Part shown: positions 18,485 to 63,136 of the stretch, one piece after another
How the letters are laid out: every line of letters starts with the position of its first letter
How positions within the stretch are numbered: position 1 is the first letter of the stretch
Assembly: GCA_036898135.1 (NCBI GenBank)
Contig: JBAHVR010000288.1
Coordinates: 341,501 to 405,500 of the forward strand
Source: Oncomelania hupensis
Lineage: Eukaryota > Mollusca > Gastropoda > Littorinimorpha > Pomatiopsidae
Reading direction: 5' to 3'
Length of the DNA: 64,000 nt
Notes under the pieces: model-generated
Told to the model about the DNA's origin: nothing
Seen by the model: the letters and a program-made list of their open reading frames with translations, nothing else
The model's database searches: none
Translations under genes and position numbers: made by a program

Positions 18485-18512
18485 GTCCCCCATATGCTGA
18501 TGTGTAGGGGAC
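18485..18512 (+). other. LINE 3'-terminal hairpin (copy 1)
   Basis: GTCCCC and GGGGAC pair around a 16-base loop containing CATATGC..TGTGT, followed by TATAATCTA and the tail. It is one of ten related hairpins in the window. Confidence 0.75.
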
Positions 18513-20520
18513 TATAATCTATCATACGATACGACGATACGGCAGGGAGAGAGCACATGGCACCACGCAGTAGATAAGGTTCGTGCCACTCGAGCAATGC
18601 CTTTGCTCTTAGTAGCCTATGATGTACTTCGAATAAATAATTTTTCAACGGTCATCACGAACTGGCGTTGGGGAAGAGAGAGAGAGAGAATGTGTGTCTT
18701 CACCATAGCCTCCATCACATAACACCATCTTCTCTCCAGACACCACACCACTCAACACCACTACATTGGGAACTCAGAATCTTTTCTTGACAGTTCGTTA
18801 GTTGTTAACTGAAGTTGCCAGCAGGTCTCATCATAAAACTTATAGTTACGAAGTGTATTTGAGTGACAATTGAATTGTGTCGACACTTACCTGTGTATTG
18901 AGAATGGCCCCAGCTAGGTCAAATGTGCCCAGCTGGTGTCCGATTTGGCAAGCCAATTTTCTTTCGTAATTTAATAATAAGTCCTGTGCTCCGTTGATGC
19001 TAGAAGTCCGACGAAACTGGCTCATGTTTTGCACCGGGAATTAATCACTGTCAACCTTTGAAGAAATAGAAATCTTAGATAGTTCGCGATGCTTCTTCCA
19101 GCTTTGCACCGTTCGTTGTGCATAGGACACCAATATCCGGGTCCCCTGGTTCAAAAACATGGTCTGCTGGCAGAGATTTCATTGGTCAACGGCTATGTTT
19201 TGCTTGCATGCCGTAATAAAAGGACCATTTCTGTGCAGAAATGGTGTGTCTCATATCGTTTTGATAACCGTTAGCACCCGTGAGCTTATTTCCTTTTTAA
19301 AAACTATAGAAGTCTTTTTATTATTGTTTGTGACTTTAGATCCTAAATCAAAGCAGAATTTACATAAGATAATAGCCCGGCCTTGCTCACGTTAAAAAGA
19401 AAAGCGAAAGTGTCAATAAAATGTTAGATCGAAATTGATAAGAATATAAAAACGAAAGTAAATTTTATAAAATTGTTTTACCTTACAGAATTCTAAATTT
19501 TGTAAATAGTATTTGACAGTTAGAATTGTTCAGTTATTTTGTTGAAGAAGTTAGTTATAAAACGTTAGTAATTTATAAATTAGATTTTATTTTTTCTTAT
19601 TATTGAGAAAACCCTCAACGTAAATGGACAGAAATAATTCGGAAGTGTGAAATTTTCTAGAAGTTTAGAACATATATTTTTCTTTTCTCGCTGCCTGGAA
19701 ATAATTAAAGTTGTGGTGTAGTGTAAAATAATTGTTAAACTGGCCATTGTATTATTTTTATATCACAAAGGAATTCATTTCACGAGTTGAAGAAAATAAG
19801 TAAATTCAACGTTTGAACGATCAAAGCAAGTTTTTGTTTAGCCTAACGTCACGTACTAGTATTCTGTTCGTGTGGCTTTTCGTATCGTTTCTATCTGCGC
19901 TAGATCTGTTTGTTATTGTAGTAAAAATTCTTTCTAACTTCCCTGTGAGCGACAGAAAGTGTGAATGTTTTTCCTTATTTGTGGAGGAATTGTTAACACA
20001 AGACATCACAGACGAGCAATACAATAAAACGGGTGCAAGCAAAACAGAGTAGATTTTGTCTGCTCCACGGTCGGTGGAACGTGATGGACCAGGAGGGAGA
20101 TAGAGAAGAAATTCTTTACACTGAGGTGTATGTTAGGTCTCCATTCCTGGTCACTGCTAAAGGAGTGACCGTGGAGTCGGGGAAAATATAAATGAACATG
20201 ATCGCAAGAACATGCATTCAGCACACATAGACAAGACAAAAGAGAAAAGATTTTTATTTATTTTATTTTGATTTTATTTTCATATTTGCTTGTCGGCCGC
20301 GCGCGGCGCAGTGTCTGGGGGTCTTTTTCTCCCCTCCCTCTCCCTCCCTCCTCCGGGTGGTGGGGGGAGAGGTTTTGAGGGGTTGCTCAGCTGTCCTGAC
20401 AAGATTTCTTTTTGGAGTGACCGGTAAAAGGGGAAAAAGGGGGGTTGACCTCGGCGGGGCGGGTGTGAGTGGCTTACAAGTAAGTGGTGTCAAGAAGTGG
20501 GATACGATTAATTGAGTACG

Positions 20521-20760
20521 ATTAATTGAGGCTAATTAAAATTATTTGAAGAATGACACCACTTCCTACAAGTAAGTGGTGTTCAGAAGGTCGGATATTT
20601 GATTAATTGAGGCTAACTGCTGCCTCAGCCCATGTTATTTTAATTGAAGGATTATTTGAAGAATGACACCACTTCCTACAAGTAAGTGGTGTTCAGAGGT
20701 AAAGGTAAAAAAAAAAAAAGGTGTTCAGAAGGTCGGATATTTGATTAATTGAGGCTAACT
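20521..20760. repeat. ~120-bp tandem repeat with internal palindrome
   Basis: The block ATTTGAAGAATGACACCACTTCC.. recurs with a 120-base period (20541 and 20661 phases), and a third partial copy follows a short A-run near 20705. Each unit has a 9-bp hairpin ACACCACTT..AAGTGGTGT (20556-20582 and 20676-20702). From 20761 to 21267 the sequence is AT-rich with (AATA)n and (TA)n runs and no recognised gene or LTR. Confidence 0.75.
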
Positions 20761-21267
20761 GCTGCCTCAGCTGTGCTAGTTTAAGTTGAAGAATTTTGTA
20801 ATTTTCTTACGAGTATTAGTTCCGTGTGTGAGATTGTGTTATGAAAATTCACTTTTTAGCCATGGTTGTTGTGTCTTGTTAGTGATGTTGGAATGCAAGA
20901 GAGAAAGACACTAAATTTTAAGTAAGAGAATAAAGCAGATGATAAAATAGACAGTTCAAATGTTTTATTCTTTAATCACATTTCATTAAACAAGACTATT
21001 TATTATACATTGATTTGAAACAGATTTACCTAGGGATATACTAGTAATGTACAAGGTTAAAATATGTAGTCATAATAAATAAATAAATAATATATATATA
21101 TACCAGTAATAGTAAACACAAATAAATAAAACAAAAATAAATTATGTGCATGACTTTTGGAGCATAGAATTAAATGGAAATTAAAAATCTAGACAGTATA
21201 GGAGCAAAACGAGAGACACGTATTGTTCATTTAAAGTGCACAACACTGGGAAAGTAAGCAAGTCATA

Positions 21268-21600
21268 ATGGCTGACCGTCAAGTGCAAGAAGAAAGAGAA
21301 ATTGCCGAAGTGGAACGCCAAAGAAATCAGCCACTGACTGAAGCAGTGGAGGGAGAATTAATGGAACTTCGACAAAAGCAACGAGAATTACTGACAACAC
21401 CAAGGGAGAATCTACAACAACCCCAGAATCAAGACGAACTCAACCTGCCCAGAGGAAATGGAATATGGGGAGAAGCTCCAGACTATGAATTTAACAACAA
21501 CAATTTTGCTCTACATGGCCCACCGCAACCGGTCACCTATTTTCCTGAGCTGCCAAGAGGAGGTAGTCTGTACAAGGCCCAAGGAAGGAAAACAATGTAA
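21268..21600 (+). pseudogene. Possible Gag remnant of second Gypsy element
   Basis: A 110-residue frame rich in E, Q and R (EEREIAEVERQRNQ..ELRQKQREL), suggesting a helix or coiled coil, overlaps the start of the pol frame. It has no capsid or zinc-knuckle signature. Position just before protease suggests a gag stump left after deletion, but homology is not shown. Confidence 0.4.
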
Positions 21601-43534: not shown

Positions 43535-43592
43535 ATCAGCTTGCTCATGGATGTCAGCACAGGAGGTGGTCAGTGCCTGCCAGTCCGTACAG

Positions 43593-45526: not shown

Positions 45527-47518
45527 ATGGATAGGTCCAGTTCGCGAGCGCCACCGTGGCGTCGGTGCCTGGAGGGGGTGACGAGAAAAGATTCGCCGGT
45601 GGTGGTGAAGGCCATGAGCGACACTGTCATTGAGACTTCCCAGGCGTGTGAAGTGCCTGGCCCAATTGAGGGTGACCTGGTCGCCCCGGTTGATATGGGT
45701 CTGGTTACACCTAGCCGGAAGAGAGTTAGAGGAACTCTGTCTGTTTCCTCCTCCTCGTCCTCGGAGGAAGAGTTGATGGTTGACGATATCTTGGAGGAGG
45801 ATATCGGTTCGGTGTCCGATTCGGCTCGCGTGGTGGTGCGTTTGGAACCGTCCGCGGGGACAGCGCAGTGTGAGACTGCTCCCGATCTCCGGAAAGAATC
45901 TGACCACGTATGGTCTACCGTTACAGGTAGGCGTAAAAATAAAAAGGGGACCAAGGCCCTTTCAAATCCGCTACCAGTGCTGAACCATGGCCTTTGCCGT
46001 TACCCAGCTGTAGTTAAATATACGGGACGATCCCAGTCCCGCGACTCTGAAATCGCGCGGCTGGAAGCTCACTGAGCATCTGAGCGCTGCCGTCGGTCCT
46101 ATTGATCGGCTGAGACAGATCGGCGATGGTTTTCTCATAGGGTGTAAGACCCGTGTACAGCAACAAAAGCTAGTTGCACTTACAGAACTCGGACAGTTGT
46201 CGGTGGTGGTTGTCGTGCCGAGCCCTTCGGTGGAGGGTGTCATTCAGGGTATCCCCGTCTCTGTGAGCGAAGAGGATATAAAGGCCAAATGTGAGGGTGT
46301 GGTCGACCCTGATGGCCATGTACGACCGTGTACTATAAAGAGTATCCACCGTTTGAAACGAGCGGATGGACAGGCCTCCAACTCAGAGTCGTTATTGAGG
46401 CGGAAACACTCCCTGATGTTTTGCTCATCAATAGGAGAGATTATCCGGTGCGCCCGTTTGTCGCGGCAGTGGTCCGCTGCTACCAATGTCACAAATATGG
46501 TCATACTAGAAAATTCTGTAATTCTGTACAAATTTGTCCCTCGTGTGGAAAATCTGGTCATTCTGGGGAGACGTGTACTGCTAAAACACGCTCCTGTTCA
46601 AACTGCAATGGTGAGCACTCGGCTACCAATAGTAACTGTCCAGCCCTGAGGGAGCGCATTCTTGCGAATCGTCTCAGGGCATCCAACTACATGCCACGGG
46701 CCCAGGCTCTTTCCCAGGCCCGTACTCAGTTAGCAGCGGACCCTGCGCGGCTTTCGTCGTTGACAAAAACCGCTCGGGGACTCGGTGGTGTCCCTGTTGA
46801 TGTCGTGGTGGGGGCGGCGCTCCCGCCTCCTGGTCGCGATGACAAGCAAGCAAAATCCGTGTGGGGTAATCCTCGAGCCCCCGTCACCCCGGCCGTGTCG
46901 GTTGCTGTGCCACCTCGGTACTCCGTAGACCAGGCCGATCCGTTTCCCCCTTTGATAGCCACCACTTCCAATAGCGGCGTGATTCCCACTGAAGTGTCGT
47001 CTGCGCCTATCTCTGGCGGCAGCGACCCTTGGATGGCAATTAGCAAACTGGAAAACCTTGTGGATAAGTTAACAAGGGTGGTGGCCGGGTTGGCTGACAC
47101 TGTTCGGGTCTTGGCCGCGCGAAAACCGTCCACTTCTAGTCAGGTCATTTCTGACATCGGGGTCCAGTCCGATTTTGCCAGGAGTATGAGTGACGCTGCG
47201 TCCCAGTCATCTCCGGGTAAGGGTCCCGGAGGAAATACTACTGTTAGTGTATGCGATACGCCATCGCAGACTTTGCCGGCTGCAGCTACCAGGTCTTGTT
47301 TCACCCAGGCTGATCGTGGTTCCTCCGATTTTCTTAAACAAATGTCTGATTATGCGAAGTTCTTGTATGTTCACTTCGAGCCGGTTTCCGTTGATTACGC
47401 GCTGGATCTGTTTCGGTGGGGTTTTGCCTCGGGTGCGGTGGATGGAACATGGACCCGGGACACGGTGATGCCTAGGAAGCCTGTCCATCCGCTTCATAGA
47501 CACGCAAGGAAATTGTAA
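45527..47518 (+). pseudogene. I-type LINE ORF1 (Gag-like, three zinc knuckles), frameshifted
   Basis: ATG 45527 opens a Ser/Glu-rich N-terminus (VSSSSSSEEELMVDD) to 46075. The sequence then continues in another frame (~46080-46360: DRLRQIGDGFLIG..VPSPSVEGVIQGIPVSVSEEDI), and returns at about 46360 to a frame open to 47518. This last part has three CCHC knuckles (CYQCHKYGHTRKFC, CPSCGKSGHSGETC, CSNCNGEHSATNSNC), NRLRASNYMPRAQALSQART, and a C-terminal helix (ISKLENLVDKLTRVVAGLADTVRVL). ORF1 of such LINEs binds element RNA. At least two frameshifts make this copy inactive. No ORF2 follows. Confidence 0.85.
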
Positions 47519-47656
47519 TATATTTCTTTCTCTTTGCGGTTTTGCCTCGGGTGCGGTGGATGGAACATGGACCCGGGACACGGTGATGCCTAGGAAGCCT
47601 GTCCATCCGCTTCATAGACACGCAAGGAAATTGTAATATATTTCTTTCTCTTTGCG
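47421..47656. repeat. 118-bp tandem duplication at the end of ORF1
   Basis: GTTTTGCCTCGGGTGCGGTG.. through the ORF1 stop and the TATATTTCTTTCTCTTTGCG that follows is present twice with a 118-base period (47421-47538, 47539-47656) and no visible differences. The duplication repeats the last ~30 codons and the stop of ORF1. Confidence 0.92.
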
Positions 47657-48206
47657 GTTTTGTCGGTTGTAGCTGTTGTTTTTTATTTTTTGTCTGCTTG
47701 CTTTTTTAAATTTTTAATATGTGCGTAACCTATCCGTTTTGGTCCTTGACCATTTTTATCTTTGTTTAGTTTCTATTTTTGTAAATTTAACGACTTTTCG
47801 GGCTAGTATAGCCATTTTTAGGTCCCATTTTTTTTATCCTTATTTTAACTATAATATGGTATATGTTTTTAACCGTGGCCCTGATAGGATTTTATTTTTA
47901 ACCAGCTTTTATATTCAGTCAGCCCTGACCCTGTATCAAAGCTTTACAGACCTGGTCTGTTATCAATATAAAAGTCCTTTTTCAATTTTTGTAATTTTCA
48001 TTCTACTTTGCTCATAAGCGCCCTTAGTCTTAGGCATGTATAAGTGTCCACCTAACCCTTCTGAGCCTATAAGCGTCCACCCAGCCCTTTCGTACGCCCA
48101 CGCTTTGTCTGCGACCCCTTCAGCCTGTGCTATTAAGTCATCTCTCATCCTGTGACCTGTTTATAACGGTCCTAATCTTCGTTCTACCCTCATCGGGAAA
48201 TCTCCT

Positions 48207-48235
48207 GTCCCTTATAAGCGCAAGTTTCTAGGGAC
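48207..48235 (+). other. LINE 3'-terminal hairpin (copy 2), stem variant
   Basis: GTCCCT pairs with AGGGAC: at the inner pair, T:A replaces the usual C:G. The loop contains TATAAGC and GTTTC; GTTAATC follows. Confidence 0.75.
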
Positions 48236-48242
48236 GTTAATC

Positions 48243-48985
48243 ATAGAATACATACATTCACAAGGTGAAGTCTGAAGGAAGAGGACATACTCTCCAATCT
48301 GGCAGTTTTATCGGAACATTTTACTCCAAAACTTTTAAACCAGCACTGAGGACAGTGCCTGGGTCATCCATTGACACAGAGCTGGATATACTCCTACATT
48401 GCTCTACCACGGATCTTCAGCCCTCTAGAGTCTAATACTCTTGGGGGTACTACGAATTTCCTGCTGACTACACTGCCAGAGTCTAAAACTCTGGTGGTAC
48501 AAGATACGCTTTGCTGTCTCCACTTGGCGCTCAAGTTACGCTTTGCAGTCCACCAAGATATGCTTTGCTGTTCACCTCCTGCTGGGGATTGAGCAGTCAG
48601 AAAGGTTCCAAAAGGTTCATCTTAAAAGCAGTCGCTCTGGTGAAGTACCTTTGGCCCTTGGCCCCCTTAGCTATTTAATCAGTAAATCCTCAGAGACCGA
48701 AGTCTCACCCCATAGGTGGGGAGGATAGCCGTCAGCTGCTGTCCCTGCCTAATGGGGGATAGCTTGTGTGGCCACCCTGTTGGGAATTTTGGCATCACAC
48801 ACCGAGTCCTGGACTCGTAGCGGCCTTTTCCCGTTGATAGTAAGGACACGTTTTCATCTATCTTCTCTTTGTTTCTGTTCTTCCATATTGAAAATTCGTA
48901 TTGTCTTTTTGTCTCCTCCGACATTCTGTCCACTTTATTTTTTTTTTTTTTTTTTTATTTTTTTTTTCTCATGTAATTTTAGATA
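48243..48985 (+). promoter_or_regulatory. LINE 5' UTR
   Basis: Non-coding leader with repeated phrases: AGAGTCTAATACTCT.. (48427) and AGAGTCTAAAACTCT.. (48478), each a small hairpin followed by GGTAC; also TACGCTTTGC-like repeats at 48502, 48537 and 48560. A T-rich run (48928-48967) precedes ORF1. LINE promoters are usually internal to this region, but no defined box was identified. Confidence 0.55.
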
Positions 48986-51202
48986 GTGACAATGACCAGC
49001 CCAATACTTGAATCCGACATTGACCCAAATGATGAGATCGATCATGACTCTGACCATGTACACTTACCGGAAGAGCCCCATTGGTGCACTCTCTCGGCCA
49101 GCACATCTGGCTCTGACTCAGAGCCCACGCCTCAGGTGAAGGGACTGAAACAGAAAACGAAGAAGACAACCCACACACAAAAAGATTTTTTACTGTCTGA
49201 CCCAAAGCCAGTAGACTCGGCCAAGGCCAACAAAAAGGCCGCCAGACGTGCACGCGAATTACTCCGACAAAAACGTGCGGGCGTTTGCTCACCTGCTGCC
49301 ACTGAGTCGCTGCGGGGCGCAGGTAGTAACCTGCTGCCTGCGGCTGACATTCAGTCCCCCTTGCATACAAACACACCATCCAGGAAACGAACTTACCCTC
49401 ATACCTCCCAGGTACCACACGCCAAGCGCAGTATCCTGGGCCCGCTCATGTCCGATCTAAATGACGAGGCTGGGATGCCTCCCCCTGATGACAACCCCCT
49501 CGTTGGGGATCCCGAACACCTGAGCGCTCCCAGTGCACATGACACCTCTCCTCAACCAGAACCAATGCTCCAATCAGACCCTCATGTTACCAACATCGCC
49601 CCGCGGGATGGGGCGAAGGACTCCTCGTCCGGCCGGGATCCTCTGCCGGCGCTCTCGCGAGGTAATTCATCGGCTGCTAGGCAGAGTGACTCCGACAACT
49701 TGTCCGGACGAGATAGTTCAGCGCCGGGTAATGGGGCGTCTCGTTCACCTCAAGCTGGCTCTACACCAAAAAAGTCTTATGCTGCGGCAGCGCGTTCCAA
49801 CGCAGCTGCCACTGGCTTCAAACGCACTTATCGTCCTACCCAGTCCAGGATTGGCTCTGAGCCGGTCGCCTACCCGGTCATTATACACGACTGCGGAGGT
49901 GGCCACGCTACCTTTTCTGGGCTGGGGCCATACGGTCAACCTAAACTGCTCAAGAGTCTAGTGGGCGACGTCCTCAGTATTCGAAAGATCCCATCTGGGG
50001 ACCATCTAGTCTCTTGCGTCTCCAAAGCCCAACAAGGACAACTGTTCCGCACCGCTAATCCTAGTGGAATTATTTGGACCACACGTATCCCCTCTGCTAC
50101 CACGGTAGGTGTAATTCGTGGACTACTGGCTGAGGGTGATGACAAAAGTTTCCTATCCCAGGTCAAAGATGACCTAACCCAACAAAATTTGTCGGTGGAG
50201 TCAGTCACACGACTCACCAGAGCCGGAGGGCATCCATCTGCTGCCTTCAAGGTCGTTTTTGGCCTCTTGGCCTTGCCGGAGGTGGTGACGCTCGGCCGAA
50301 CCCGATATGGAGTAGACCCATATGTGGCACCGGTAATGCGATGCACCAAGTGCCAGCTACTGGGCCACGTTCGTCATCAATGCCGTCGCCGTACGGAAAG
50401 ATGTGCCCGATGTGGTAAGGACCACAAAACGAAAGAATGCGATTCTAGTGTCAGAATCTGTGTGAATTGTAATGGCGCACACTCCTCGGCCTGGGGGGGG
50501 GGGGGGTGCCCTGAAGTCGAGATTTGTCGCAGGGCCAATCGGCTCCGTGGATCTAACTATCTCTCCTTTGCGACGGCCGTCGCCCAGGCTAGGACTGGCG
50601 CAGGTAGAGATGGTTCACCGATTGGCACTCAGACGTATTCATTGCGTCACTTCCCTGGCGGGCGCGCACAGACCCTTCGTCAACGCGCACCTAGCATCGT
50701 GGCTGAGGATGGCGTCTTGAGTGGCCCCCTGGTGACGGGGACTGTCGCGGCAGCTGCCGCAGACCTACCGCCTGTGGTGGATGGGGTTGGTGGCACTGGG
50801 GGCGTCTCGGCTCCCTGTGCAGGCCTGCCTCGCTCTCCCAAACCGGATCGTCGCCCAAAGGGTGCACCTACACAGACCTCTCACCGAAAGAAGGATCGCG
50901 CTGTGCGACCCACCGTCAGCTCCCAACGGGAGGAGGCACGACACGCGCGTGCTCCAAACGTTCGCGGTTCCACGACTCTCGGAACTCAGGACGCGCATTC
51001 TTCGATAACTCCCCAAGCCTCGCTGGCAGGGCACGCTCTTCCACAGATGTTGACACAGCTGGCGGACCTGGAGGCCCCTCTTATGGCTAGCCTGGACGCA
51101 CTGCCCCCTGACCTGGCCCCAACACGGGCCATCTTCACTACGCTTTTTATCCTTTTGAAATCTATCTGCACAATACTAATCCATAATGGCCCCCAATCTT
51201 AA
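48986..51202 (+). CDS. I-type LINE ORF1 protein, 738 residues
   Basis: Starts MTSPILESDIDPNDE. The N-terminal half is low-complexity, with basic patches (KANKKAARRARELLRQKRAG). A folded region follows, about residues 290-450 (YPVIIHDCGGGHATFSGLGPYGQPKLL..KFVVFGL-like). Three CCHC knuckles lie at about 453-510: CTKCQLLGHVRHQC, CARCGKDHKTKEC, and CVNCNGAHSSAW..C. The third is crossed by a run of fourteen G (50493-50506) that stays in frame. The C-terminus ends with a helical motif (LPQMLTQLADLEAPLMASLDALPPDLA), also kept in the truncated copy. It would bind LINE RNA as a nucleocapsid-like chaperone. The stop overlaps the ORF2 start by 17 bases. Confidence 0.9.
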   Translation: MTMTSPILESDIDPNDEIDHDSDHVHLPEEPHWCTLSASTSGSDSEPTPQVKGLKQKTKKTTHTQKDFLLSDPKPVDSAKANKKAARRARELLRQKRAGVCSPAATESLRGAGSNLLPAADIQSPLHTNTPSRKRTYPHTSQVPHAKRSILGPLMSDLNDEAGMPPPDDNPLVGDPEHLSAPSAHDTSPQPEPMLQSDPHVTNIAPRDGAKDSSSGRDPLPALSRGNSSAARQSDSDNLSGRDSSAPGNGASRSPQAGSTPKKSYAAAARSNAAATGFKRTYRPTQSRIGSEPVAYPVIIHDCGGGHATFSGLGPYGQPKLLKSLVGDVLSIRKIPSGDHLVSCVSKAQQGQLFRTANPSGIIWTTRIPSATTVGVIRGLLAEGDDKSFLSQVKDDLTQQNLSVESVTRLTRAGGHPSAAFKVVFGLLALPEVVTLGRTRYGVDPYVAPVMRCTKCQLLGHVRHQCRRRTERCARCGKDHKTKECDSSVRICVNCNGAHSSAWGGGGCPEVEICRRANRLRGSNYLSFATAVAQARTGAGRDGSPIGTQTYSLRHFPGGRAQTLRQRAPSIVAEDGVLSGPLVTGTVAAAAADLPPVVDGVGGTGGVSAPCAGLPRSPKPDRRPKGAPTQTSHRKKDRAVRPTVSSQREEARHARAPNVRGSTTLGTQDAHSSITPQASLAGHALPQMLTQLADLEAPLMASLDALPPDLAPTRAIFTTLFILLKSICTILIHNGPQS

Positions 51203-54200
51203 TAAGTTCCTGCTCCTGCTCCTGTTATACCTGAGCTTCCCCATACGTGGAATGGACGCTCTGCAAATTTTCCAATACAATTGTAGGTCCAAAGCGACCC
51301 TTATTAACTCCCTTCCCCTGCTGAACAGAGACATTGAACAGAGCCATGTACTCTGTTTACAATCCCTTAATTGTAAAAGAAGCGACCTCTTGGTCATACC
51401 TGGGTTTCACTACCCCCCCTTATATACAACTGGCGAACACGACAAAATCTATGTCGCGACTTACATTAGGCACGGGTTAACGGCCGTCGATCTGGGACCA
51501 GTTGACGAGGAAGACGGAGGTGGCTTTACCTCCTCCCTCCGTATCACTCTGGAGGGACATGGCCTCTCCGGCCCTGTTCAGATTCTGAATTATTACCACC
51601 CTAAAGGCTGTCGTAGTTTCGACTGGCTCGCCCCCATCGTCTCCAGTGGTCACTGGATTGTCCTTGGCGACTTTAACTGCCGGGATGGGCGGTGGGAGGA
51701 GGACTGCCCTAACTTCTCCACTAGTATTGGCGAAGCTCTTACGGAGGCCAACTTGACCATTCTAAATGATGGGTCTTCCACCAGAATCCCGGACAGGGCC
51801 GACCACTCGAGCTCTGCCATTGACCTCTGCTTTGTGACGCCCGATCTCGTGCCGTGCACTACATGGGCCGTTGCGCATGACCCGGCGTTCTCCGACCATC
51901 TGCCCATAATTGTCAGGGTAGATGGACGTCCACAGTCCGAGACCCCCCCACCCACTCGTGTAAATTGGAAGAGGGTGGACTGGGAGAGATATTCTTCTTG
52001 TTTAGAATCTTTCATGCTCCCTTTGGGAGTTCCCCTCGACGATGCGGAGACCAGCCTGCGGGAGGCCCTTAGCTCCGCCCTTGCCATGAGCGCACCAGCG
52101 GACAATCGCCGGACTACCGGGATCCCAAAACCCTGGTGGACAGAGGAGTGCAGACTGGCCGTGCGAAACAAGCGGACAGCGTATAAACACTACAAGGCAC
52201 TGAATTCACCGGCCACCTACCAGGAGATGCGTTCCACCAAGTTCGCCGCCAAGCGTGTCATAGCCGCAGCCAAGAGGGACTATGGACTGGCCAAACTCAA
52301 CGAGGCCCAAACCTTAGGCGAGGTCTGGACAAACCTGCGTCGATTGCGCGGAAACTATCGACCATTAGACCCTACCATGTCCGATGGACACAGCGTCCTG
52401 TCAACAGCCGAAGAAAAGGCCGAGGCCTTTCTCTCACTATTCGTGTCCGCCAGTGATGGCACACGCCTGCCTCCTGGGGAGGCAGAGAGACGGCAGACCT
52501 ATGAGACAACCTTAGACCCAGAACCTACACCAGATCCACCTACCCATCTCTTCACATTACATGAATTGGCCAGGGCCCTTAGGTCTTGCCCTACCAACAA
52601 AAACGCCGGCCCTGATGGGATTCACTATCAAATGCTAGTTAAATCACCTGCCTCATTTAAGACGGTGCTGCTGTCCTTTTTTAATCACTGTTTTTCCGCC
52701 GGCCGGGTGCCTGACGCTTGGAGGCGAGCCACTGTCGTCCCAGTACACAAAGCGGGAAAGCCGCGTAATAGAATAGACAGCTACCGACCTATTTCGCTCA
52801 CATCTCACATGAGCAAAGTCTACGAGCGGATGATTAAACAGCGACTCAATTACTTTTGCTCTCAAAGGAATGTTATCCCCACCCTGCAGGCCGGTTTTCG
52901 CCGCGGGAGGGGCATAACCGACCATTTAGTAAAGTTAAATGAGCACGTCAGGAGGGCCCTCCAGAAACGGAGAGCGGTCCTGGCGTGCTTCTTCGATGTG
53001 TCGCGTGCTTTTGACTCCGTCTGGCACGCGGCTCTCACCACCAAACTCAAATCACTGGGGGTCGACCCCTCCATCCGATCATTTGTCACCTCCTTTCTTC
53101 ACAATAGGAGGATCAGGGTCCGCTGGGGTGGCGCCCTCTCTGGTGAGGGCAGGCTCCTCATGGGCGTCCCCCAGGGATCCGTGATAGCTCCATTACTATT
53201 CTCTATTGCTCTGTCAGGGATGGGCCTGTGCCCTCCCCATTCCTCTATCGTCACGATGTATGCGGACGACATAGCTTTATGGCGGACCACGAGTAGTCGC
53301 CCCCTGCGGCCTCAGCACCGCCTTTTCCGCAGGGATGTCGACTATTTTCAGACTGACGTAGACTCTGTCTCGTCGACTTTACGGGAGGTGGGTCTTTTCC
53401 TTGCCCCGGAAAAAACCGTTTTCGTCCCTTTTGCGGCTCGATGGGAGAGTGGCTTCAACACCATGAGCATCCGAGTGAATGACACAATGGTACCGGCATC
53501 TAAAAAGGTACGATATCTCGGGTTCATTTTTCAGCAGAATGGCCAGTACAGCTCGCATGCCGAGCGAAACTATAACAGTGCCTCCCGCGCCATCTCTGTT
53601 CTGCTGGCAGTTCGCCGGGAGACCTGGGGCAGCGACCCCAAGGCCCTTGTGGTCCTGGTACAGTCTTTGGTCCGTTCTCGCCTTACCTTTGGGGCCGAGT
53701 TACTATACGACCTACCGGCCTATCGTATACAACGGATGGAGTGCTTGGAGTGTAGGGCCCTTCGAATCGCCCTATCACTCCCCTCCGCCACTTCACCAGC
53801 CATGGTGTATCGCCTGGCCGGTATTTTGCCGCTAAAGTTCTACTTTACCCAGTTAGCATCTTCCTATATGCTCAGAGCGGGCCTGGTCCCTAATACCACC
53901 CGTGAGGAGCTCTTGCCCTCCTTTATGTGGCCGATCACGGCTCGACCTGTCTTGGGGATGGCCGAAGCCGTCGCTAGACAACTAGGTGACCCCTTTCGAT
54001 GCGGAGTCCGCGTTGATAAGAATCCACCCCCTCGTCCCCCGTGGGAACCAACTCCTAGCGTCTTGGTCTTGGGAGACGGTCGCCTTTCTCGTGCGAGCGA
54101 CCTGCCCACTCTTACTTCACTTGCCAAGGAACTTATTGACTCCCTTTCCAGCTCAGTGCGAGTTTTCACTGACGGGAGTGTCCTACCCGGCGGAGAGGCG

Positions 54201-55001
54201 GGATTCGGCTTTTGTTCAGACATCGGCGGTACCGTCTCTGGTGGCTTGCCACCTGGTACCTCAGTCATCGCTTGCGAACTAGTGGCCATAAGGGAAGCCT
54301 TGGGCACGCTGGGTGGGGTCTCTCTCCCCCCCGGCTCCCAGATTTCTGTTCTAAGTGACTCCTTGAGTGCTCTTCGGAGCATCGAGGGGATGGGCAGTGG
54401 CTCCAGACCTGGACTGGTCCATTCGGTCCTCGATTCCGTTTCCTCTCTCGCGTCCGACGGACATCCCGTGCATTTCTACTGGGTGCCCTCCCATGTGGGC
54501 CTTCCGGGCAATGAGATGGCGGACCGTGCTGCCGCCATCGGGTCGACTGGTCTCGCTAAGGCCTCTTTACTCTTACGCCCCTCCGCTTCTGAGGTCAAGG
54601 CCAAGGTGAAGCAAAAACTATGGCGTCTCTGGGATGATGAGTACCTCACATGGTGTGGTGACAGATGGGATCGCACCCTCCTGGGTGGAAACCGGCCGAT
54701 GCCGCTCTATGCCAGCTATCCTCCCCACCTGACTACTATCATGATGCGCCTTTGCACCGGGGTCTGTCCCCACCCTTTCTTCCCCGCCCAGTGTGTATGT
54801 GGCGGGACGATCGACTACGAACACTGTATCTTCCTGTGTTCTGCTCTGGAGGCTGACTTTGCTCCTGTCAGGACAGCCTGCCTTGCCTTGCAGCTGGGAA
54901 ATCTGCATGATCTTGTGGCCTATTCTCTGTCCCTCGACCTTAGACTATTGCTGCGAACAGCTGTGTGCGCGTACCAATCTTGTGTGGCTGCACACCTCTA
55001 G
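51186..55001 (+). CDS. I-type LINE ORF2: endonuclease, reverse transcriptase, RNase H, 1,271 residues
   Basis: APE endonuclease occupies about residues 20-240 (FQYNCRSKATL, VLCLQSLNCKR, VLGDFNCRDGRW, SDHLPIIV). RT lies about 450-780: NAGPDGIHYQM, YRPISLTSHMSKVYERMI, CFFDVSRAFDSVWHAAL, MGVPQGSVIAPLLFSIALSG, YADDIALW (active site ~692), then KKVRYLGFIFQQNG. RNase H at about 990-1110 has VFTDGSVLPGGEAGFG (D), CELVAIREAL (E), VLSDSLSAL (D) and HFYWVPSHVGLPGNEMAD (H, D). The C-terminal Cys/His motif is CVCGGTIDYEHCIFLC. No break is visible and all catalytic residues are present. The enzyme would nick target DNA and prime cDNA synthesis from the LINE 3' end. It starts at ATG 51186 inside the end of ORF1, suggesting reinitiation or coupled translation; MDALQIF at 51252 is an alternative start. 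Confidence 0.93.
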   Translation: MAPNLNKFLLLLLLYLSFPIRGMDALQIFQYNCRSKATLINSLPLLNRDIEQSHVLCLQSLNCKRSDLLVIPGFHYPPLYTTGEHDKIYVATYIRHGLTAVDLGPVDEEDGGGFTSSLRITLEGHGLSGPVQILNYYHPKGCRSFDWLAPIVSSGHWIVLGDFNCRDGRWEEDCPNFSTSIGEALTEANLTILNDGSSTRIPDRADHSSSAIDLCFVTPDLVPCTTWAVAHDPAFSDHLPIIVRVDGRPQSETPPPTRVNWKRVDWERYSSCLESFMLPLGVPLDDAETSLREALSSALAMSAPADNRRTTGIPKPWWTEECRLAVRNKRTAYKHYKALNSPATYQEMRSTKFAAKRVIAAAKRDYGLAKLNEAQTLGEVWTNLRRLRGNYRPLDPTMSDGHSVLSTAEEKAEAFLSLFVSASDGTRLPPGEAERRQTYETTLDPEPTPDPPTHLFTLHELARALRSCPTNKNAGPDGIHYQMLVKSPASFKTVLLSFFNHCFSAGRVPDAWRRATVVPVHKAGKPRNRIDSYRPISLTSHMSKVYERMIKQRLNYFCSQRNVIPTLQAGFRRGRGITDHLVKLNEHVRRALQKRRAVLACFFDVSRAFDSVWHAALTTKLKSLGVDPSIRSFVTSFLHNRRIRVRWGGALSGEGRLLMGVPQGSVIAPLLFSIALSGMGLCPPHSSIVTMYADDIALWRTTSSRPLRPQHRLFRRDVDYFQTDVDSVSSTLREVGLFLAPEKTVFVPFAARWESGFNTMSIRVNDTMVPASKKVRYLGFIFQQNGQYSSHAERNYNSASRAISVLLAVRRETWGSDPKALVVLVQSLVRSRLTFGAELLYDLPAYRIQRMECLECRALRIALSLPSATSPAMVYRLAGILPLKFYFTQLASSYMLRAGLVPNTTREELLPSFMWPITARPVLGMAEAVARQLGDPFRCGVRVDKNPPPRPPWEPTPSVLVLGDGRLSRASDLPTLTSLAKELIDSLSSSVRVFTDGSVLPGGEAGFGFCSDIGGTVSGGLPPGTSVIACELVAIREALGTLGGVSLPPGSQISVLSDSLSALRSIEGMGSGSRPGLVHSVLDSVSSLASDGHPVHFYWVPSHVGLPGNEMADRAAAIGSTGLAKASLLLRPSASEVKAKVKQKLWRLWDDEYLTWCGDRWDRTLLGGNRPMPLYASYPPHLTTIMMRLCTGVCPHPFFPAQCVCGGTIDYEHCIFLCSALEADFAPVRTACLALQLGNLHDLVAYSLSLDLRLLLRTAVCAYQSCVAAHL

Positions 55002-56221
55002 GACTCCTGGCCCTAACCTGGACCGTGTGTTTATATACACCCAGTCGCCGCTTGACTTGACACCACCTCCAGAGTAACGTCCCTGGGACCCCTGCGCCCC
55101 AAACCTGGTTTGACGGCTGCCGGGGCCCGGCGGTCTTGTAGCGATACCCTCCTTAGGATATCTCGGGCGGGGCACCCTGTGCCTCTCCCTTGAGGCTCGC
55201 TACGCCCTTTGACTGACACACCTATCAAGACACCTCATTACACGTAGACACCTTCAGTCGACCCCTAGGGCCTGGGTGCTACTGCTAAGGACTGACGTTA
55301 TAGATATGATGGCGGCAGAGACTCTAGTCCTGTGCCTCTATCTAACACAACCTAAATCTTACCCAACGATTACATTCTTACTATTACTGGCCACCTTATA
55401 AGACCTAGGGTTCGTGTCCCAGTAACCATGGACTGACCTTCCCATTTTGCCACCCGGTTCCCGCGCCTCGGACCTGGTCCGATGGTAGCCCTGGGCTTCC
55501 GTGGTGTGCCTGGCTGACTAGAGATTGTAGGCACCTGGTGCCTACCCTATGCCTAGCCCTTACCTATGGACTGACTACTTATAAAGACTTAACCCCGTTT
55601 GTATGTACCACAGTTGACCCCCTGGGTCCTTGGTGATACCTCTCATGGTCTGACATTCGTGACTGGTTGACCTTCAGTTGACCTTTGTCCTGGGTCCCAG
55701 CCTCACTCTTTTCATATAGGTATCAATGAAAAATCTTTATTGACGCTCCAGACGACTTATGGACAACGACTTTGTACCCACTGACCTCCAGACCCGACTC
55801 GCCGATTTTTGGGATGACTTCTACAAGTCCCCTCACTATAGGCGTATAACCTTTAGGTACCGACATGTTAATGGAACAAGTAGTTAGAATTGTCAATGCA
55901 TAACGACTTTCTCCTCTCATCGACTAGGCACTGTCCCATTTTAACAGTTGTATTTATCCTATAGATGTCCTCTCCTGACACTGGACTGCCATGTTTTAAG
56001 ACTTATCTATTTGACACCTCGACTTGTCAACACGGATGTACATCATCCGTATCACTATATATACATTATTTTCTTCTAATTTTGTCTTATGTTGTCTTGT
56101 CCTTTTATACGTGGTCCTGATAGGATTTTTATCCCTTGATAGGAGGCTTTTAATACAAATTTTTATTCTCCCTAACCCATCTTTGTCCCTATTTTTTATA
56201 ATTTGTCTTCTTAATCACATA
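55002..56221 (+). other. LINE 3' UTR
   Basis: About 1.2 kb, non-coding, with repeated GTTGACC..GGGTCC..-type phrases (about 55256-55290, 55610-55640, 55668-55705) also seen in the truncated copy. GTGGTCCTGATAGGATTTTT at 56111 is shared with 18382 and 47876. Confidence 0.65.
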
Positions 56222-56249
56222 GTCCCCTATATGCTGATGTGTCGGGGAC
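56222..56249 (+). other. LINE 3'-terminal hairpin (copy 3, intact LINE)
   Basis: GTCCCC..GGGGAC with loop TATATGCTGATGTGTC, then TATAATTTTATCAAATCAATC. This copy ties the hairpin to an intact, domain-complete LINE. Confidence 0.8.
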
Positions 56250-56288
56250 TATAATTTTATCAAATCAATCAATCAATCAGACGTTAAT

Positions 56289-56600
56289 CTAAATAACGAA
56301 CGAACTTGTAGTCTTCACAAGATCTAGAGTCTCCTCTCTGAAAATCCTTACCGGGAAGAGAGGGGACTATAAACTGATTTTAAAAAAAAATTGTAGTCTT
56401 CAGGCGTTTTCCGTAGTCTTCAGTAGTTAAAAAGTGGTGTTTCACCCGTCCCCTATACGCTTATGTGTCCGGGGACGTTAATCTAAAAAAACTAAACTTG
56501 TAGTCTTCTTCTTATTACTTAATTTGCCCTCTCCTTGTCCCCTATACGCTTCTGTGTCCGGGGACGTTAATCCAAATAAAAAAAAAATGTAGTCTGCAGT
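56289..56600 (+). repeat. Cluster of LINE 3' ends and tails
   Basis: Three hairpins lie in tandem: 56328-56368 (a 12-bp stem AGTCTCCTCTCT/AGAGAGGGGACT with one T-G pair), 56448-56476 and 56537-56565 (both GTCCCC/GGGGAC). Each is followed by a TATAA or GTTAAT box, an A-rich tail and (T)TGTAGTCTTC or TGTAGTCTGC (56391, 56498, 56588). The first tail (56289-56313) is the continuation of the LINE interrupted at 48242. Confidence 0.8.
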
Positions 56601-58060
56601 GAAGGAACGGAAAACGAAGCTTAACGTCCTATTGCATCAGCGTTAAGGACGATCACCACGTCGCCACCCTGACAACAATGATCATCATCATCTTATCAAA
56701 GATGAGATCCTACGGATCTAAATTTTGTGTGTAGCTGCAAGGGAAGAGGATAAGGTAACATTGAAGGGGAAAGTCCTCCGGTGCGAAATGATTATATAGT
56801 TTAGTCTTAGACTTTGGCCGACGGCGCGGACAATAAAACAGGGTGATGGGTGATAGAATCGTGAAACCCCAAACTTTTTAAACAAATGAATAATTGTATA
56901 TTTTTATAGTTGATCTTTGTGTCGACCGTCTTTCGGATGGCAATGCCGCAAACCTGGTGGCGCGTTGGCGCCATGAAACGGTCTCGGACCGGGTATGGAA
57001 ATATCATTTTTAAATAAAAAAAAAAAAAGCTAATTTTAAATATATGGACGCTATATGTGTTCAATTTTCTTATTTTTTACATATAACCTATCTCAAAACT
57101 TTTAAATGTATTTTAGGATAGACATGCTTTTAACCTTGTCTTTTCTTCTGACAAATTTTATCCCTTTCTCTTTTTGGGATGGGGCCCGGCCACAACACCA
57201 CACGGCTCACAATTCCGTAACTTTTTAATCCACTACGCTCGGCGCTGCGCCGACTTTTTCCCTCTCTTTTCCTCTCTAGACGCCAGACCTGGTTTGGCAC
57301 TATTTTAAAGCTGGCCATTTTTGGCCAAACTTGATTGTCCTTAACATTTAATCATAGGACGTGAAGCTTCGCTTACTGGACACTGTAGTCTGCAGCAGCG
57401 CAGGGCAGTGGCTTCGCTCGTCAGCTGCGAACAAGCGCGGTGGTCCGACAGTCGTGGCAGGACTGTTTGCGGGGGTGGCAGTCCCGCGTTAGCGCTTCAG
57501 GAGGCGTTCAGACCGGCCGGGCGTGCTGTCCACTTCGTTGGATGACCTTCGCTGTTTCTTGCCATACTGAGGTCGAGAACGTTTTGGAGGTACGAAGACG
57601 GAGCGGCTAGCGCCTGACCGGAGATCCCGATACGATACTCCACACAAACTACAAACTTCATTTTCAACTTGGTAGAGCTCCTTCGACTGCGTGGCGGGAT
57701 GGCTGCGGCGAAAGCGCGCCTCGTCGTTGTCTACCGTCTCACTTTCCATGGCTGCTCTTCATTCTCTTACTACGACTAGGGCGACATTGGGACATCTGTG
57801 GAGGGTGGCGACCTCCGGGTTGCAGTTGCACGCAACGCCAGAATTTCCCTGTGCCTGCCTTCACTTCACTCTTGGCTTGACTTCGTGTCACACCACTTCG
57901 CTCCACTACGCTGCGATATCGGCGAATCTTCCACCTTGCGCACAACATTGTGCTACGACGTAAATGCTGCAGCGAATGACTATAAATTCGTCTTCAACAT
58001 CAATCTACGATTTCAACATCAACCTACGACTTCTTATATAATTGTGACTTCAACCATCAC
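56601..58060. other. LINE-derived or unclassified sequence
   Basis: AT-rich to about 57350, then GC-rich (57380-57950). CGAAGCTTAACGTCCTAT near 56617-56634 is inversely related to the loop of the hairpin at 58844-58903. A second TGTAGTCTGCAG occurs at about 57387. A minus-strand frame at 57489-57749 (86 codons, starting MESETVDNDEARF, with a CSLCG pair and a basic C-terminus) is in a likely ORF1 or 5' UTR context, but I cannot recognise it. Confidence 0.35.
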
Positions 58061-58089
58061 GTCTCCTATATGCGTCAGTGTCCGGGGAC
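58061..58089 (+). other. LINE 3'-terminal hairpin (copy 7)
   Basis: GTCTCC pairs with GGGGAC with one T-G wobble. GTTAACCTTATC, a (AATCG)-like tail and TTGTAGTCTGC follow (58116-58126). Confidence 0.7.
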
Positions 58090-58429
58090 GTTAACCTTAT
58101 CCAATCGAATCGAAATTGTAGTCTGCCTTAGGTCCATGTTGACCGAGCAAGCTTTGGGCTCCATGCGAGTCCTTATTCAGGACACATCTTGCTCAGTTTT
58201 GGGCACAAGTTCTACTGAACTTAGTCCTGCGGGACAGACGTCCACCGCTACTGTACATTCCGCATAGATATAGTTATTTTTTCCCACGACAAATCTATTT
58301 TTATCAATATGTTTTAAAATTTTTTATTTAAACTTGTACAAATTTGTCAGCCAATTTGGCCTTTTAACATTAAACCTATTACTAGTCGACTTTTAAATTT
58401 TTTTTTTTATAATTTAGACCCGATTCAGC

Positions 58430-58756
58430 ACTGGCAATAGCCTGGCAGACCTGGTCTGTCCTTATACAAAAATAAATAAGTTTCCTTTTATAACTTGATA
58501 AATACTTATACCATATTATTTACCTTAGCTTTCCTCCCCTCCTCGCTGGCCTTGCCGAACCTCCCCTCAACACCCTTTTTTCGCTTCCCTTTTCGTCTGC
58601 CTTATTTCAACCTGACGGCTTCCCTCCTGCCGGTTGTCGTAGCAGCCGTCGCTGCCACAGGCGCTCCATTTTCATTTTTACCCCTTCAGCAAGATTTCTT
58701 ATTTCAACGAACTACAAACATTTCCTTGTCCCCTATACGCTCATGTGTCCGGGGAC
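58430..58756 (+). mobile_element. LINE 3'-UTR fragment ending in the hairpin (copy 8)
   Basis: AGACCCGATTC.., CAATAGCCTGGC and CAGACCTGGTCTGTC (58415-58465) match the fragments at 47948 and 59146-59190. About 300 bases later GTCCCC..GGGGAC occurs (58728-58756), with a (TGAA)n tail. The stretch 58127-58429 shows no other feature. Confidence 0.7.
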
Positions 58757-59145: not shown

Positions 59146-59469
59146 AGACCCGATTCTGACCTATCAATAGCCTGGCCAGACCTGGTCTGTCATTCATATA
59201 AAAATAAATTTTTCAATACAATATCCATTTTTCTCCGTTGGGGGGGGGGGGGGGGGATTCGTATTCTTGACCACCTGACTTTCCGGTTACCTTTTTATCT
59301 TCCCGCGGTCCTTGCCGGCCTTCTTCCCTTTTTGTTGAGCCATCTTTGGCATTTTTATATAGACAGCATTTTTGCTGGGTTTTATTGTCCCGAATGTTCA
59401 CATGGGGACGTAAAAATTCCTATATTCCCCCCCTTCCCAGTCCCCTATTCGCGCTTGTGACGCGGGACT
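59146..59469 (+). mobile_element. LINE 3'-UTR fragment ending in the hairpin (copy 9)
   Basis: Contains AGACCCGATTC, CAATAGCCTGGCC and CAGACCTGGTCTGTC (59177), a G16 run (59240-59256), and the hairpin AGTCCC..GGGACT (59439-59469) followed by TTAATTTACCC. Confidence 0.7.
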
Positions 59470-61049: not shown

Positions 61050-61053
<4 letters not shown>

Positions 61054-61280
61054 AGTAGTGTGTCATCGCTATTTCTGGAGAATAAGCGTTATGAATGAAT
61101 GGCTAATCTGCAGCGCGCGCATTCTAGCCTTGGCCTATCGCTGCACAGCGACATCACGTGACAATAAGAAGTTCCCACACAGGCACAGGCGTTACTGGCA
61201 GTAAAAGGACCTTGCACTTGACCCCAGGGTCAAGCGTTATGGGACCTCACAAGATCGAGCTGTAGGTAGCTCACTGTATA

Positions 61281-61445
61281 AAGTAGTGGCCACATGGATT
61301 ACGTTTTACAGCTTATACCCTGAGTTATGAGATTTTTTCCTGACTTAGGAGTTTATTGGCCACCTTTGACTTAACGTTTCACGGCTTATGCATTAGGTCG
61401 GAGATAGTGGCGCCATGTTTATCACGGCCCGGTTCTAATTTATAA
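61281..61445. repeat. Repeat unit related to 63344-63535
   Basis: AAGTAGTGGCCAC.., TTACGTTTTAC.GCTTAT, GTCGGAGRTAGTGGCGCC and ATGTTTATCACGG recur in the same order at 63344-63535, on the other side of the hAT element. Within each, ..GGCTTACGTTTTACGG..TTATG is itself partly repeated. Confidence 0.7.
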
Positions 61446-61927
61446 ACGTGTCGAGCTGTGTAATATCACTACAACAAGGCACTTGTTATAAATAAATAAA
61501 TGAACTTCACTAAGATCTACAGGGCCGGACCTGGGGAAAGTCGAAGGGGGGGTTACAGGTTCAGCGAAGGCGCGAAGCGCCGAGCCTTCTAGGGGGGTCC
61601 GGGGGCATGCCCCCCCCCCCCCCCCGGACAATTTTTGTTTTGAAGGATGCAAAATGGCGCAATCTGGTGCTATCTGAACCTTTAAAAAGCCATTTGTGTT
61701 GGTCTGGGACTTTGAGCTTTTTTAACAGTTGAACTGACAAACTCTGAGGTACAAAAATTATCCTCTGCACCTCACTTTAAAAAAAACAACAACAACACAC
61801 ACACACAAACATTTATTTATCAGCAGAGATGTTTTGTATACTATTATTATTCACTACTTTTTGTCGATCGCTAACGGTATAAAGCTTTACCTTGTAGTTT
61901 ATGAACATCACCGCCTTGCTTTCACTT

Positions 61928-62603
61928 TCAGTCTTGCTGCACTAGGTTCTCCGGCATTAGTACCATTTGTGAATTGTATCTTCTGGCAAAACAGTTCACT
62001 GCCTCTTTGAAGTCAATATCAACATCCCTGTGCACTTTCAGTAAAGCAAGTCGATTGAGCCTCTGTTGCCCCATTGTAGAGCGCAGGTAGTTTTTCAGGT
62101 TGCGCAACTGACTGTTTGAACGCTCACACTCGGCAGTAGTGACAGGCAGGGTGCAAAGGTTCTTTAGCATGATGAACAGGTTGGGATAAAAATCCCCGTC
62201 ACAATGTTTCAGTGCTTCTGATGCCGTGGATGGGATGATAGCTGTCGCATTCTCAGCAGCACTTCGCCATTTGCAAACCCACCGTTGGTATTCTGCATCA
62301 AGGGTAGCGTTGTCTGGTAGGTCAGACTCCCACAACATTGCCAGTGTCTTCACCCCTTCTGGAACCTGCATGAAACCATCCTGATTGTCTATTAAAGTGT
62401 TTGGCACCAGACAGAGACCATCAACTTGCTAGGTCAGCATTTTTGAACCTCGAGTCCAATTCGGTTGACAGGTGTTCCAAGAAAGGAATGGCAATGCTAA
62501 TCTTGAAATATTCTTCTGGAGTGGCCGCAGGTTGGTTGTCACGGAGAGTCTGTTGGGATGCTTGACGAGGAACAATAACATCAGTTGTCAAAGCATTTGC
62601 CAT
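61928..62603 (-). pseudogene. hAT transposase C-terminal part (P52rIPK/ZMYM1-like)
   Basis: The first piece (62603-62421) has EEYFKISIAIPFLEHLSTELDSRF, the end of the catalytic region. A frame change near 62430 precedes the second piece (62407-61928), which holds the hAT dimerisation domain: YPNLFIMLKNLCTLPVTTAECERSNSQL.., LRSTMGQQRLNRLALLKVH. The BED finger, DDE aspartates and most of the nuclease are missing. The ATG at 62603 is chance; the true protein began upstream in sequence now deleted. Inactive. Confidence 0.85.
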
Positions 62604-62932
62604 TTTGCTGACTTCACCAAACCAGGCAACGAATTATAGTTCATAATTATCAACTTAGCATCTTAATTAATATTTCTAAAAAGTCGTTTTTGGGGGATTA
62701 GGGCAGTATCAAGGTGAAGGTGCTGGAAGAGGCTTGCGGACAGAACAGGAAAATATGGCTGCATTTACTAATTTAGGCTTAGTGGTAGGGTTACTTGGTC
62801 GTTTCAACGGGAAAACGCTTTGGACGTTTCAACGGATCCCTTGAAATGGATTTCCGTTGAATTGTCTATAAATAACTATTTGTACCTTGGACCAAAAGTG
62901 AATAAAAACTGCAATGTTTTAAAAACAATTGA

Positions 62933-63136
62933 CGAGGGGCCGGGTAGCTCAGTTGGTAAGAGCGTCTTGCTAGTAACCGAAAGGTCGCTGGTTCGAATCC
63001 CGGATTGGTCAACGTGTGATCATATTATTTTCCCCTTTACCAACAACTGGCCCGCTGGTGTCAGTATAAATCGGTCCAGTAGTCACCTATATGCGAAAGT
63101 GTCGTGTGACTATAATCTACAAACAACAACAACAAC
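62933..63136 (+). mobile_element. tRNA-derived SINE with LINE-like 3' end
   Basis: The head resembles a tRNA, with A box TAGCTCAGTTGGTAAGAGC and B box GGTTCGAATCC; the anticodon-loop-like CTAGTAA hints at tRNA-Thr. The body includes CATATTATTTTCCCC, and the 3' end carries the hairpin AGTCAC..GTGACT (63081-63111), TATAATCTA and a (CAA)n tail. It is flanked by the 11-bp duplication AAAACAATTGA (62922-62932, 63137-63147). The length of 204 bp is normal for a SINE. It sits inside the hAT remnant, so it is younger. Confidence 0.92.

Follow-up and report, generated by a model that had tools for sequence, protein, structure and literature searches.

The stretch analysed here, called the window, comprises 64,000 nucleotides of the genome of the gastropod Oncomelania hupensis (positions 341,501 to 405,500 of the forward strand of contig JBAHVR010000288.1, assembly GCA_036898135.1). 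It contains several long interspersed nuclear elements (LINEs) and a short interspersed nuclear element (SINE) that end in copies of one small RNA hairpin, which is probably the site by which the LINE enzyme recognises its templates. As listed in Table 1, LINE A is inserted within the 3' end of a second element, LINE C, whose tail picks up again at 56290, past LINE A. The LINE A target-site duplication (TSD), GACGTTAATC, is found at 48233-48242 and 56280-56289. Elements of the I superfamily are recognised by an endonuclease, a reverse transcriptase and an RNase H encoded in the second open reading frame (ORF2), and Pfam finds all three in LINE A ORF2; LINE A ORF1 has no Pfam match. A homologue search returned 46 proteins, mostly unnamed, the best at 35-39% identity. 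A candidate TSD of LINE B, CGGCAGGGAGAGAG, was rejected, as it is the beginning of 226 bases that match exactly a stretch at 5072; this second copy, at 18540, lies just past LINE B. The SINE near the end of the window is flanked by the TSD AAAACAATTGA at 62922-62932 and 63137-63147. The B box GGTTCGAATCC can be read by eye in its head, and ARAGORN calls no tRNA in the window.

Table 1. Hairpin-bearing elements and associated features, in window coordinates.
Feature	Positions	Strand	Evidence
LINE B, minimum extent; ORF2 split over two frames (13773-16646, 16546-17496); hairpin 18485-18512	13773..18512	+	
LINE C; ORF1-like frame 46313-47518; hairpin 48207-48235	46313..48242	+	
TATAAG in LINE C hairpin; the LINE A nick (48233) is 20 nt downstream of its first T	48213..48218	+	
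LINE A, full length (8,037 bp), within the 3' end of LINE C	48243..56279	+	TSD, ORFs, hairpin
LINE A ORF1 frame, 739 aa, CCHC-like motifs by eye	48983..51202	+	open frame
LINE A ORF2 frame, 1273 aa, uninterrupted; endonuclease, reverse transcriptase, RNase H	51180..55001	+	Pfam RVT_1, Exo_endo_phos_2, RNase_H
LINE A 3' hairpin, then TATAATTTT and an (AATC)n tail	56222..56249	+	direct reading, folding
Array of short insertions; hairpins 56448-56476, 56537-56565, 58061-58089	56307..58126	+	
Different 3' hairpin, 11-bp stem, then TATAAACTGAT; separate family in the window array	56329..56367	+	
3' hairpin of another copy, (AATG)n tail	58728..58756	+	direct reading
3' hairpin, inner stem TCGC/GTGA; same type in L007	59439..59469	+	direct reading
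AATAAAAA, TATA-like, starting 21 nt upstream of the SINE nick	62901..62908	+	
tRNA-headed SINE, head from 62936, hairpin 63081-63111, (ACA)n tail	62933..63136	+	TSD

A first-pass annotation of the window had described ten copies of a single structure, a 6-bp stem enclosing a loop and followed by TAAT. Direct reading finds one structure at nine of these places (18485, 48207, 56222, 56448, 56537, 58061, 58728, 59439 and 63081), while the tenth, at 56328/9, is a different hairpin with an 11-bp stem (GTCTCCTCTCT...AGAGAGGGGAC) that the covariance model does not match. This model was built from the nine window copies, so that its finding all nine in the window is by construction. An inner 4-bp stem within the loop had been overlooked; by sequence it is possible in all nine copies, as NNGC and GTNN around 3-5 nt, in the forms ATGC/GTGT, ACGC/GTGT, AAGC/GTTT (48207) and TCGC/GTGA (59439). 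The outer stem is AGTCCC/GGGACT at 59439 and AGTCAC/GTGACT at 63081, and both are followed by CTAT and have a 3-nt 3' bulge. The structure as a whole comprises an outer stem of 6-7 bp, a 3-nt 5' bulge (usually TAT), a 3' bulge of 1-3 nt and the inner stem, whose loop is free in both letters and length (3-5 nt). In most copies TAAT comes next, then a simple repeat that adjoins a TSD of ~10 bp.

Seven copies folded alone were more stable than their shuffles (z-scores of -2.2 to -4.2 sd), indicating that the hairpin is not due to chance. In four of them (48207, 56448, 58061 and 59439) the minimum-energy fold includes the inner stem as drawn, and in the other three (18485, 56222 and 63081) a displaced inner helix. 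Rfam gave no match within 40001-64000, the part searched. A pattern of outer stem plus TAAT had 75 matches in the genome, versus five for the reversed pattern; this tests the stem and not the TAAT, because 35 of the 75 belong to one minisatellite and most others read the hairpin from the opposite strand. The minisatellite (C9:53741148-53743595) consists of at least 35 near-identical hairpin-bearing units, mostly at 69-bp spacing, and appears to be a hairpin insertion turned minisatellite.

The wider distribution of the hairpin was examined at LINE loci sampled by protein, with the last 199 residues of ORF2 as the query; 150 of 8,516 first-look candidates were scored, at least 151 matches were obtained, and 70 ORF2 loci were examined (L009-L078, of which L009 and L025 are the window's own copies). 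The hairpin lies downstream of ORF2 on the same strand in 56 of the 70, at 769-1294 nt past ORF2 in 49 of these and at 158 and 1426-2485 nt in the other seven, as compared to opposite-strand matches in seven of the 70 loci; the scan demands pairing as well as rough sequence likeness and is thus not wholly neutral. Stretches of N fall inside six LINE loci (L010, L021, L026, L027, L062 and L069). In a tree of ORF2 the loci form many well-separated families. In 139 pairs drawn from 19 representatives, with ORF2 identities of 45-60%, identity is 81% over the 41 nt of the hairpin region, whereas the upstream 3' untranslated region (UTR) of the same pairs is at the level of shuffles (0.39 vs 0.39) and otherwise cannot be aligned between families, making the hairpin an island of constraint at the 3' end.

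Pairing was scored in an alignment of 58 distinct copies against a 10-pair structure. Standard pairs make up 96.4% of the total, compared to 93.6% (sd 0.3) in shuffles, none of 500 of which reached 96.4%; controls in which the partner was slid along gave 28-57% pairing, at most 56.7%. These figures are not to be read as probabilities, since the shuffles ignore relatedness. Two-sided changes occur in four pairs, versus 0.8 in shuffles. Five of the six standard pairings are seen at pair 9-32 (CG 47, UG 5, AU 3, GU 2, UA 1), which is never unpaired in the 58 copies, and a seventh flanking pair is common, yet unpaired in 17 of 58. The earlier claim that the pairing covaries is thus borne out, the alignment exceeding every shuffle and pair 9-32 being without a mismatch, and so is the placement of the hairpin at LINE and SINE 3' ends, as it stands directly before the tail and TSD in divergent LINE families found by protein alone. 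The further statement that pairing rather than sequence is kept was too strong: the outer stem is GTCCCC/GGGGAC in most families and most positions hardly vary, from which it follows that sequence and structure are both kept.

LINE/SINE pairs with a common 3' end are known in CR1/L2, RTE, Tad1 and plant L1 elements, among others. Here the SINE has both the hairpin and TATAATCTA in common with LINEs, and a conserved stem-loop at the LINE 3' end, as in LINE/SINE pairs of the stringent type, is found in the 56 loci above, with covariation. Twelve heads of the window-SINE kind, the window's included, were found among the window and the loci examined, and a subfamily with G-U at pair 9-32 is represented in L052 and by one L007 copy. 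A second SINE family, a single copy in L002, has a different tRNA-like head, the same type of hairpin and the TSD TGAAACCTTA, so the sharing of the hairpin between LINEs and SINEs proposed from the window alone extends to two tRNA-headed families, the second known from one copy. None of the LINEs examined has the exact stem of the SINE; the LINE A type is nearest and also continues TATAAT.

The hairpin could instead serve RNA stability, export or 3' end formation, roles that sequence conservation alone cannot tell from recognition. This is rather unlikely, as the hairpin is common to LINEs and tRNA-headed SINEs whose RNAs are otherwise different, it adjoins the tail where reverse transcription starts, and in L2 elements the ORF2 protein is described as binding such a stem-loop (excerpts of PMC4176376). 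For recognition, the ZfL2 elements provide the analogy: the ORF2 protein would bind the hairpin and thereby start target-primed reverse transcription. Such a start from hairpin and tail is consistent with the TSDs of these elements, with their 5' truncation and with the form of their 3' ends.

The sites at which the SINE inserts were examined in 60 SINEs, all members of tandem pairs on two contigs and chosen without regard to the flank, of which 96 nt on the 5' side were read. Nineteen were dropped, 11 without a recognisable head and eight with another element's end upstream (array-internal), leaving 41 original sites; the dropped flanks are uncounted, though several show TATA. The ends of these SINEs share a word of at least 6 nt at 39 of the 41 sites, and of at least 8 nt at 36, as TSDs do. 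TATAWA starts 28-42 nt before the SINE head at 26 of the 41, versus 1 and 0 in equal control windows 46-60 and 63-77 nt before the head (binomial tail ~4e-35 at the window's own TATAWA rate), and at 24 of 38, with controls of 1 and 0, when three related targets are removed. A wider TATA-like motif, chosen post hoc, is present at 31 of 38 (controls 1 and 2). A nick could be called at 39 sites; at 24 of them the box begins 21-22 nt upstream of it, counted from the first T (21 nt in 15, 22 nt in nine); single sites have it at 18, 19, 20 and 31 nt and 11 have no upstream TATAWA. Sites without TATAWA carry near forms (CCATAAAT, GATAAAAG) or, in three cases, GGACGTTAAGC, which resembles an old element end; L114 and L139 have neither the near forms nor GGACGTTAAGC. 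At most of the original sites examined, the SINE insertion thus begins 21-22 nt past a same-strand TATA box. The 26 boxes, preceded by C or G in 77% and frequently followed by G, resemble core-promoter boxes.

A DNA preference of the endonuclease itself, for a bendable AT step like the Tn-TA of Bov-B and with no involvement of a promoter or a TATA-binding protein, could account for this motif, and the chance that it does is put at somewhat short of even. At most sites the box varies in position by no more than one or two bases, as direct protein-DNA contact would give, and Bov-B has a T-stretch ~10 nt upstream of its own site (excerpts of PMC13295347), but the C or G before the box and the frequent G after it are those of core promoters, unlike AT-rich DNA.

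At LINE sites the evidence comes from few cases, by which LINEs are likely to share the TATA target of the SINE. LINE A lies downstream of a TATAAG (Table 1). In L161, a LINE-type copy that is truncated, TATATAAAG stands 22 nt ahead of a TSD identified by eye, and L146 has TATAAATAG upstream, with no TSD called. L167, a LINE on C7, matches the 5' end of LINE A at 93% over 251 nt, and the match starts 28 nt after the first base of TATAAATAG; this is compatible with the spacing and not proof of it, because the 3' end is masked and neither TSD nor nick could be set. No LINE 5' end was seen in another fetched stretch, L166, and the 5' flanks of hairpin-only copies, 20 of which were fetched, are mostly uninformative because the copies are variably truncated. 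TATA sequences also occur in the ends of the elements themselves: in LINE A, TATAAT starts 30 nt ahead of the TSD, and in the SINE, at 17 junctions within arrays, it lies 16-28 nt (median 20) upstream of the junction.

These junctions belong to head-to-tail arrays. In the window array, TGTAGTCTTC recurs at 56307, 56392 and 56499 and TGTAGTCTGC at 56588, 57384 and 58117; the TSDs have TTC in three copies and TGC in three, a difference which suggests that the insertions were not simultaneous. In L045 the successive units are LINE-type hairpins and SINEs, most of them separated by TGTCTTCCCC. Similar arrays with other TSDs occur in L052, L079, L080, L082 and L085, and in L079 SINEs and a LINE-type hairpin stand at one TSD. 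LINE-type and SINE copies therefore reuse the same TSDs, as expected of one enzyme. Of 32 neighbouring hairpins that lie on one strand and no more than 700 nt apart, 17 have a word of 7 nt or more in common past the tail, as compared to 131 of 1969 random pairs, a few of the shared words not being TSDs (a SINE head in L007, part of a tail in L047). Genome-wide there are 235 exact LINE-type and 431 exact SINE-SINE head-to-tail junctions and none of the reversed patterns, which are a weak control for repeats; a single larger repeat, present in copies, accounts for some of the 235. The comparisons that followed used 47 LINE-type and 84 SINE-SINE junctions among those listed, one of the 84 having stray letters in the tail, a part that was left uncompared. 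Nine SINE arrays have two or more of the junctions listed; in these, 12 of 17 neighbours have 6 nt or more in common other than in the tail, versus 18 of 1653 unrelated pairs.

Judged by sequence, insertions thus recur at the same nick and so build head-to-tail arrays with one TSD. Neither this recurrence nor the TATA-box spacing had been noted in the first-pass annotation. A fixed target sequence, TGTAGTCTKC as seen in the window, was rejected, as other arrays have other TSDs, and so was template jumping as the source of the arrays, as a TSD stands between the units. Tandem duplication or unequal crossing-over after a single insertion is an unlikely source of these arrays. Some neighbours are identical or alternating (C1:141588211, C2:9249483), suggesting that a few arrays may be later duplications, and the larger repeat and the minisatellite of hairpin-bearing units at C9:53741148 also speak for duplication; but LINE-type hairpins and SINEs occur side by side in the arrays, and adjacent copies with a common TSD are unlike in the sequence and length of their tails and in the nucleotides separating TSD from head. 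The arrays bear also on the origin of the tails. Closely related copies in the LINE A group have different tail units, as expected if each tail were copied from its target and reflected its site, but nearly all SINE tails listed consist of A and C; this source of the tails is highly improbable, and was rejected given the several different tails found at the same TSD in L045. Parts of one repeat, around CAGAAGGCTGTTCTCGTATGCATCTGAGAGTGT, are common to the array 3' flanks of L039, L052, L079 and L083; in L083 the repeat has a TATA box ahead of it, so that one repeated promoter-like sequence may be hit often.

Taken together, the hairpin is probably the 3' recognition site of a group of RNase H-bearing LINEs, with at least two SINE families borrowing their enzyme; insertion is TATA-spaced at most of the original SINE sites examined, and it recurs at the same nick. 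LINEs would share the target of the SINEs, and targeting would read the TATA box either directly or through the TATA-binding protein. Being upstream of the new junction, the TATAAT or GTTAAT that the element brings with it could then rebuild the target and allow the site to be used again; the restoration of a TATA-like box near the right distance would explain the reuse of the same nick. A more specific proposal is that the system seeks RNA polymerase II (Pol II) core promoters, cuts ~21 bp past the TATA box, with the TSD reaching the start site, and carries its own TATA-like box, similarly spaced, next to the hairpin at its 3' end. This version is given just under an even chance. The usual spacing from TATA to transcription start is 28-32 nt, by which the TSD would reach the start of transcription.

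Several observations weigh against this interpretation. With regard to the hairpin, all six two-sided changes at pair 9-32 are in SINEs (five) or a truncated copy (one), none being in an ORF2-bearing LINE, and 14 of the 70 ORF2 loci show no hairpin in the examined DNA; L053 and L071 are long, unmasked, true negatives, while L010, L026 and L069 are masked and L012, L023, L029-L032, L034, L035 and L037 reach no more than 1.5 kb. With regard to the target, the sites sampled are those of tandem-pair SINEs from two contigs, less the 19 dropped, and exact TATAWA is absent from the 28-42 nt interval at 15 of 41. The division into array and original sites was set after the flanks had been seen and differs from the first script for L102, L116 and L135, all with TATA, which that script flagged as array-internal; without them the count is 23 of 38. 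Four solo SINEs that were examined have TATA in two cases, AATAAAA in one and GTTAAGC in one. Among LINEs, only LINE A has both a TSD and a box. The spacing of the element's TATAAT (16-28 nt in arrays, 30 nt in LINE A) is looser than that at original sites, and most LINE families end in GTTAAT or GGTAAT, which have a weaker likeness to TATA.

The 11-bp hairpin in the window array belongs to a second family, found eight times in a scan of the window and the fetched loci, each time followed by TATAAACT (window 56329-56367, L015, L016, L043 twice, L151, L152 and L165), often in the same arrays. This family also lies upstream of the hairpin-only copies L151, L152, L164 and L165. TATA-like boxes are found upstream of it at L016 and L152, with no TSD called. 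Elsewhere in the window are two reverse transcriptase ORFs of different LINE types (41708-43702 on the reverse strand, 39338-40540 on the forward strand) and a long terminal repeat (LTR) retrotransposon, which we take from its look to be of the Ty3/gypsy type, with an identical 80-base stretch in its presumed LTRs (4561-4640 and 12875-12954) and ORFs at 5327-10229. The ORF at 36929-37735 on the reverse strand may encode a Harbinger-type DDE transposase, which it resembles.

A covarying hairpin across many RNase H-bearing LINE families offers a testable RNA recognition site outside the clades studied so far. The TATA spacing is the larger point, as it would represent a new class of LINE/SINE target. 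If it is confirmed, these elements would provide a natural means of RNA-templated insertion at promoters and an example of an element carrying a copy of its own target signal; under the promoter-seeking proposal, each insertion would rebuild the target and might give a gene a substitute TATA box, the same promoter taking repeated insertions.

Among known systems, the closest to this hairpin are the stringent-type L2 LINEs UnaL2 and ZfL2-1/ZfL2-2 and the eel SINE, in which a 3' stem-loop and tail are common to LINE and SINE. According to the excerpts of PMC4176376, this stem-loop is needed for retrotransposition, the ZfL2-2 protein binds it via the region between the endonuclease and the reverse transcriptase, and in ZfL2-1 a swapped stem works at about half the rate while a swapped loop fails. 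In the present elements, by contrast, the loop varies freely and the stem, bulge and inner stem are kept, and the LINEs bear an RNase H and are not placed in L2. An L1-clade LINE and SINEs of maize and sorghum likewise have a 3' hairpin with variable stems and conserved flank and loop letters (excerpts of PMC3747384), but its clade, structure and kingdom are different. In molluscs, PMC10294476 gives LINE donors as known for three of eight bivalve SINE families and gives Nimb and Ingi as the I-superfamily clades, apart from an unplaced O. sinensis group. For the target, Bov-B resembles the present system in that its LINE and SINE have a common insertion signature upstream of the nick, which consists of a T-stretch and a TA step where a TATA box at 21 nt is found here, and the first TSD base goes with the tail repeat (excerpts of PMC13295347). 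No LINE or SINE at TATA boxes is described in the literature searched, most subscription papers lying outside it, and the nearest cases are TRE5-A of Dictyostelium and Ty3 of yeast. In the excerpts of PMC5911963, the TRE5-A ORF1 protein interacts with TFIIIB, including the TATA-binding protein, and Ty3 insertion in vitro needs the TATA-binding protein and Brf1. These retrotransposons are guided to the region of transcription start, as is proposed here, but TRE5-A, listed there as L1-type, and Ty3, an LTR element, both insert at RNA polymerase III genes, whereas the mark at the O. hupensis sites is a TATA box like those of Pol II promoters.

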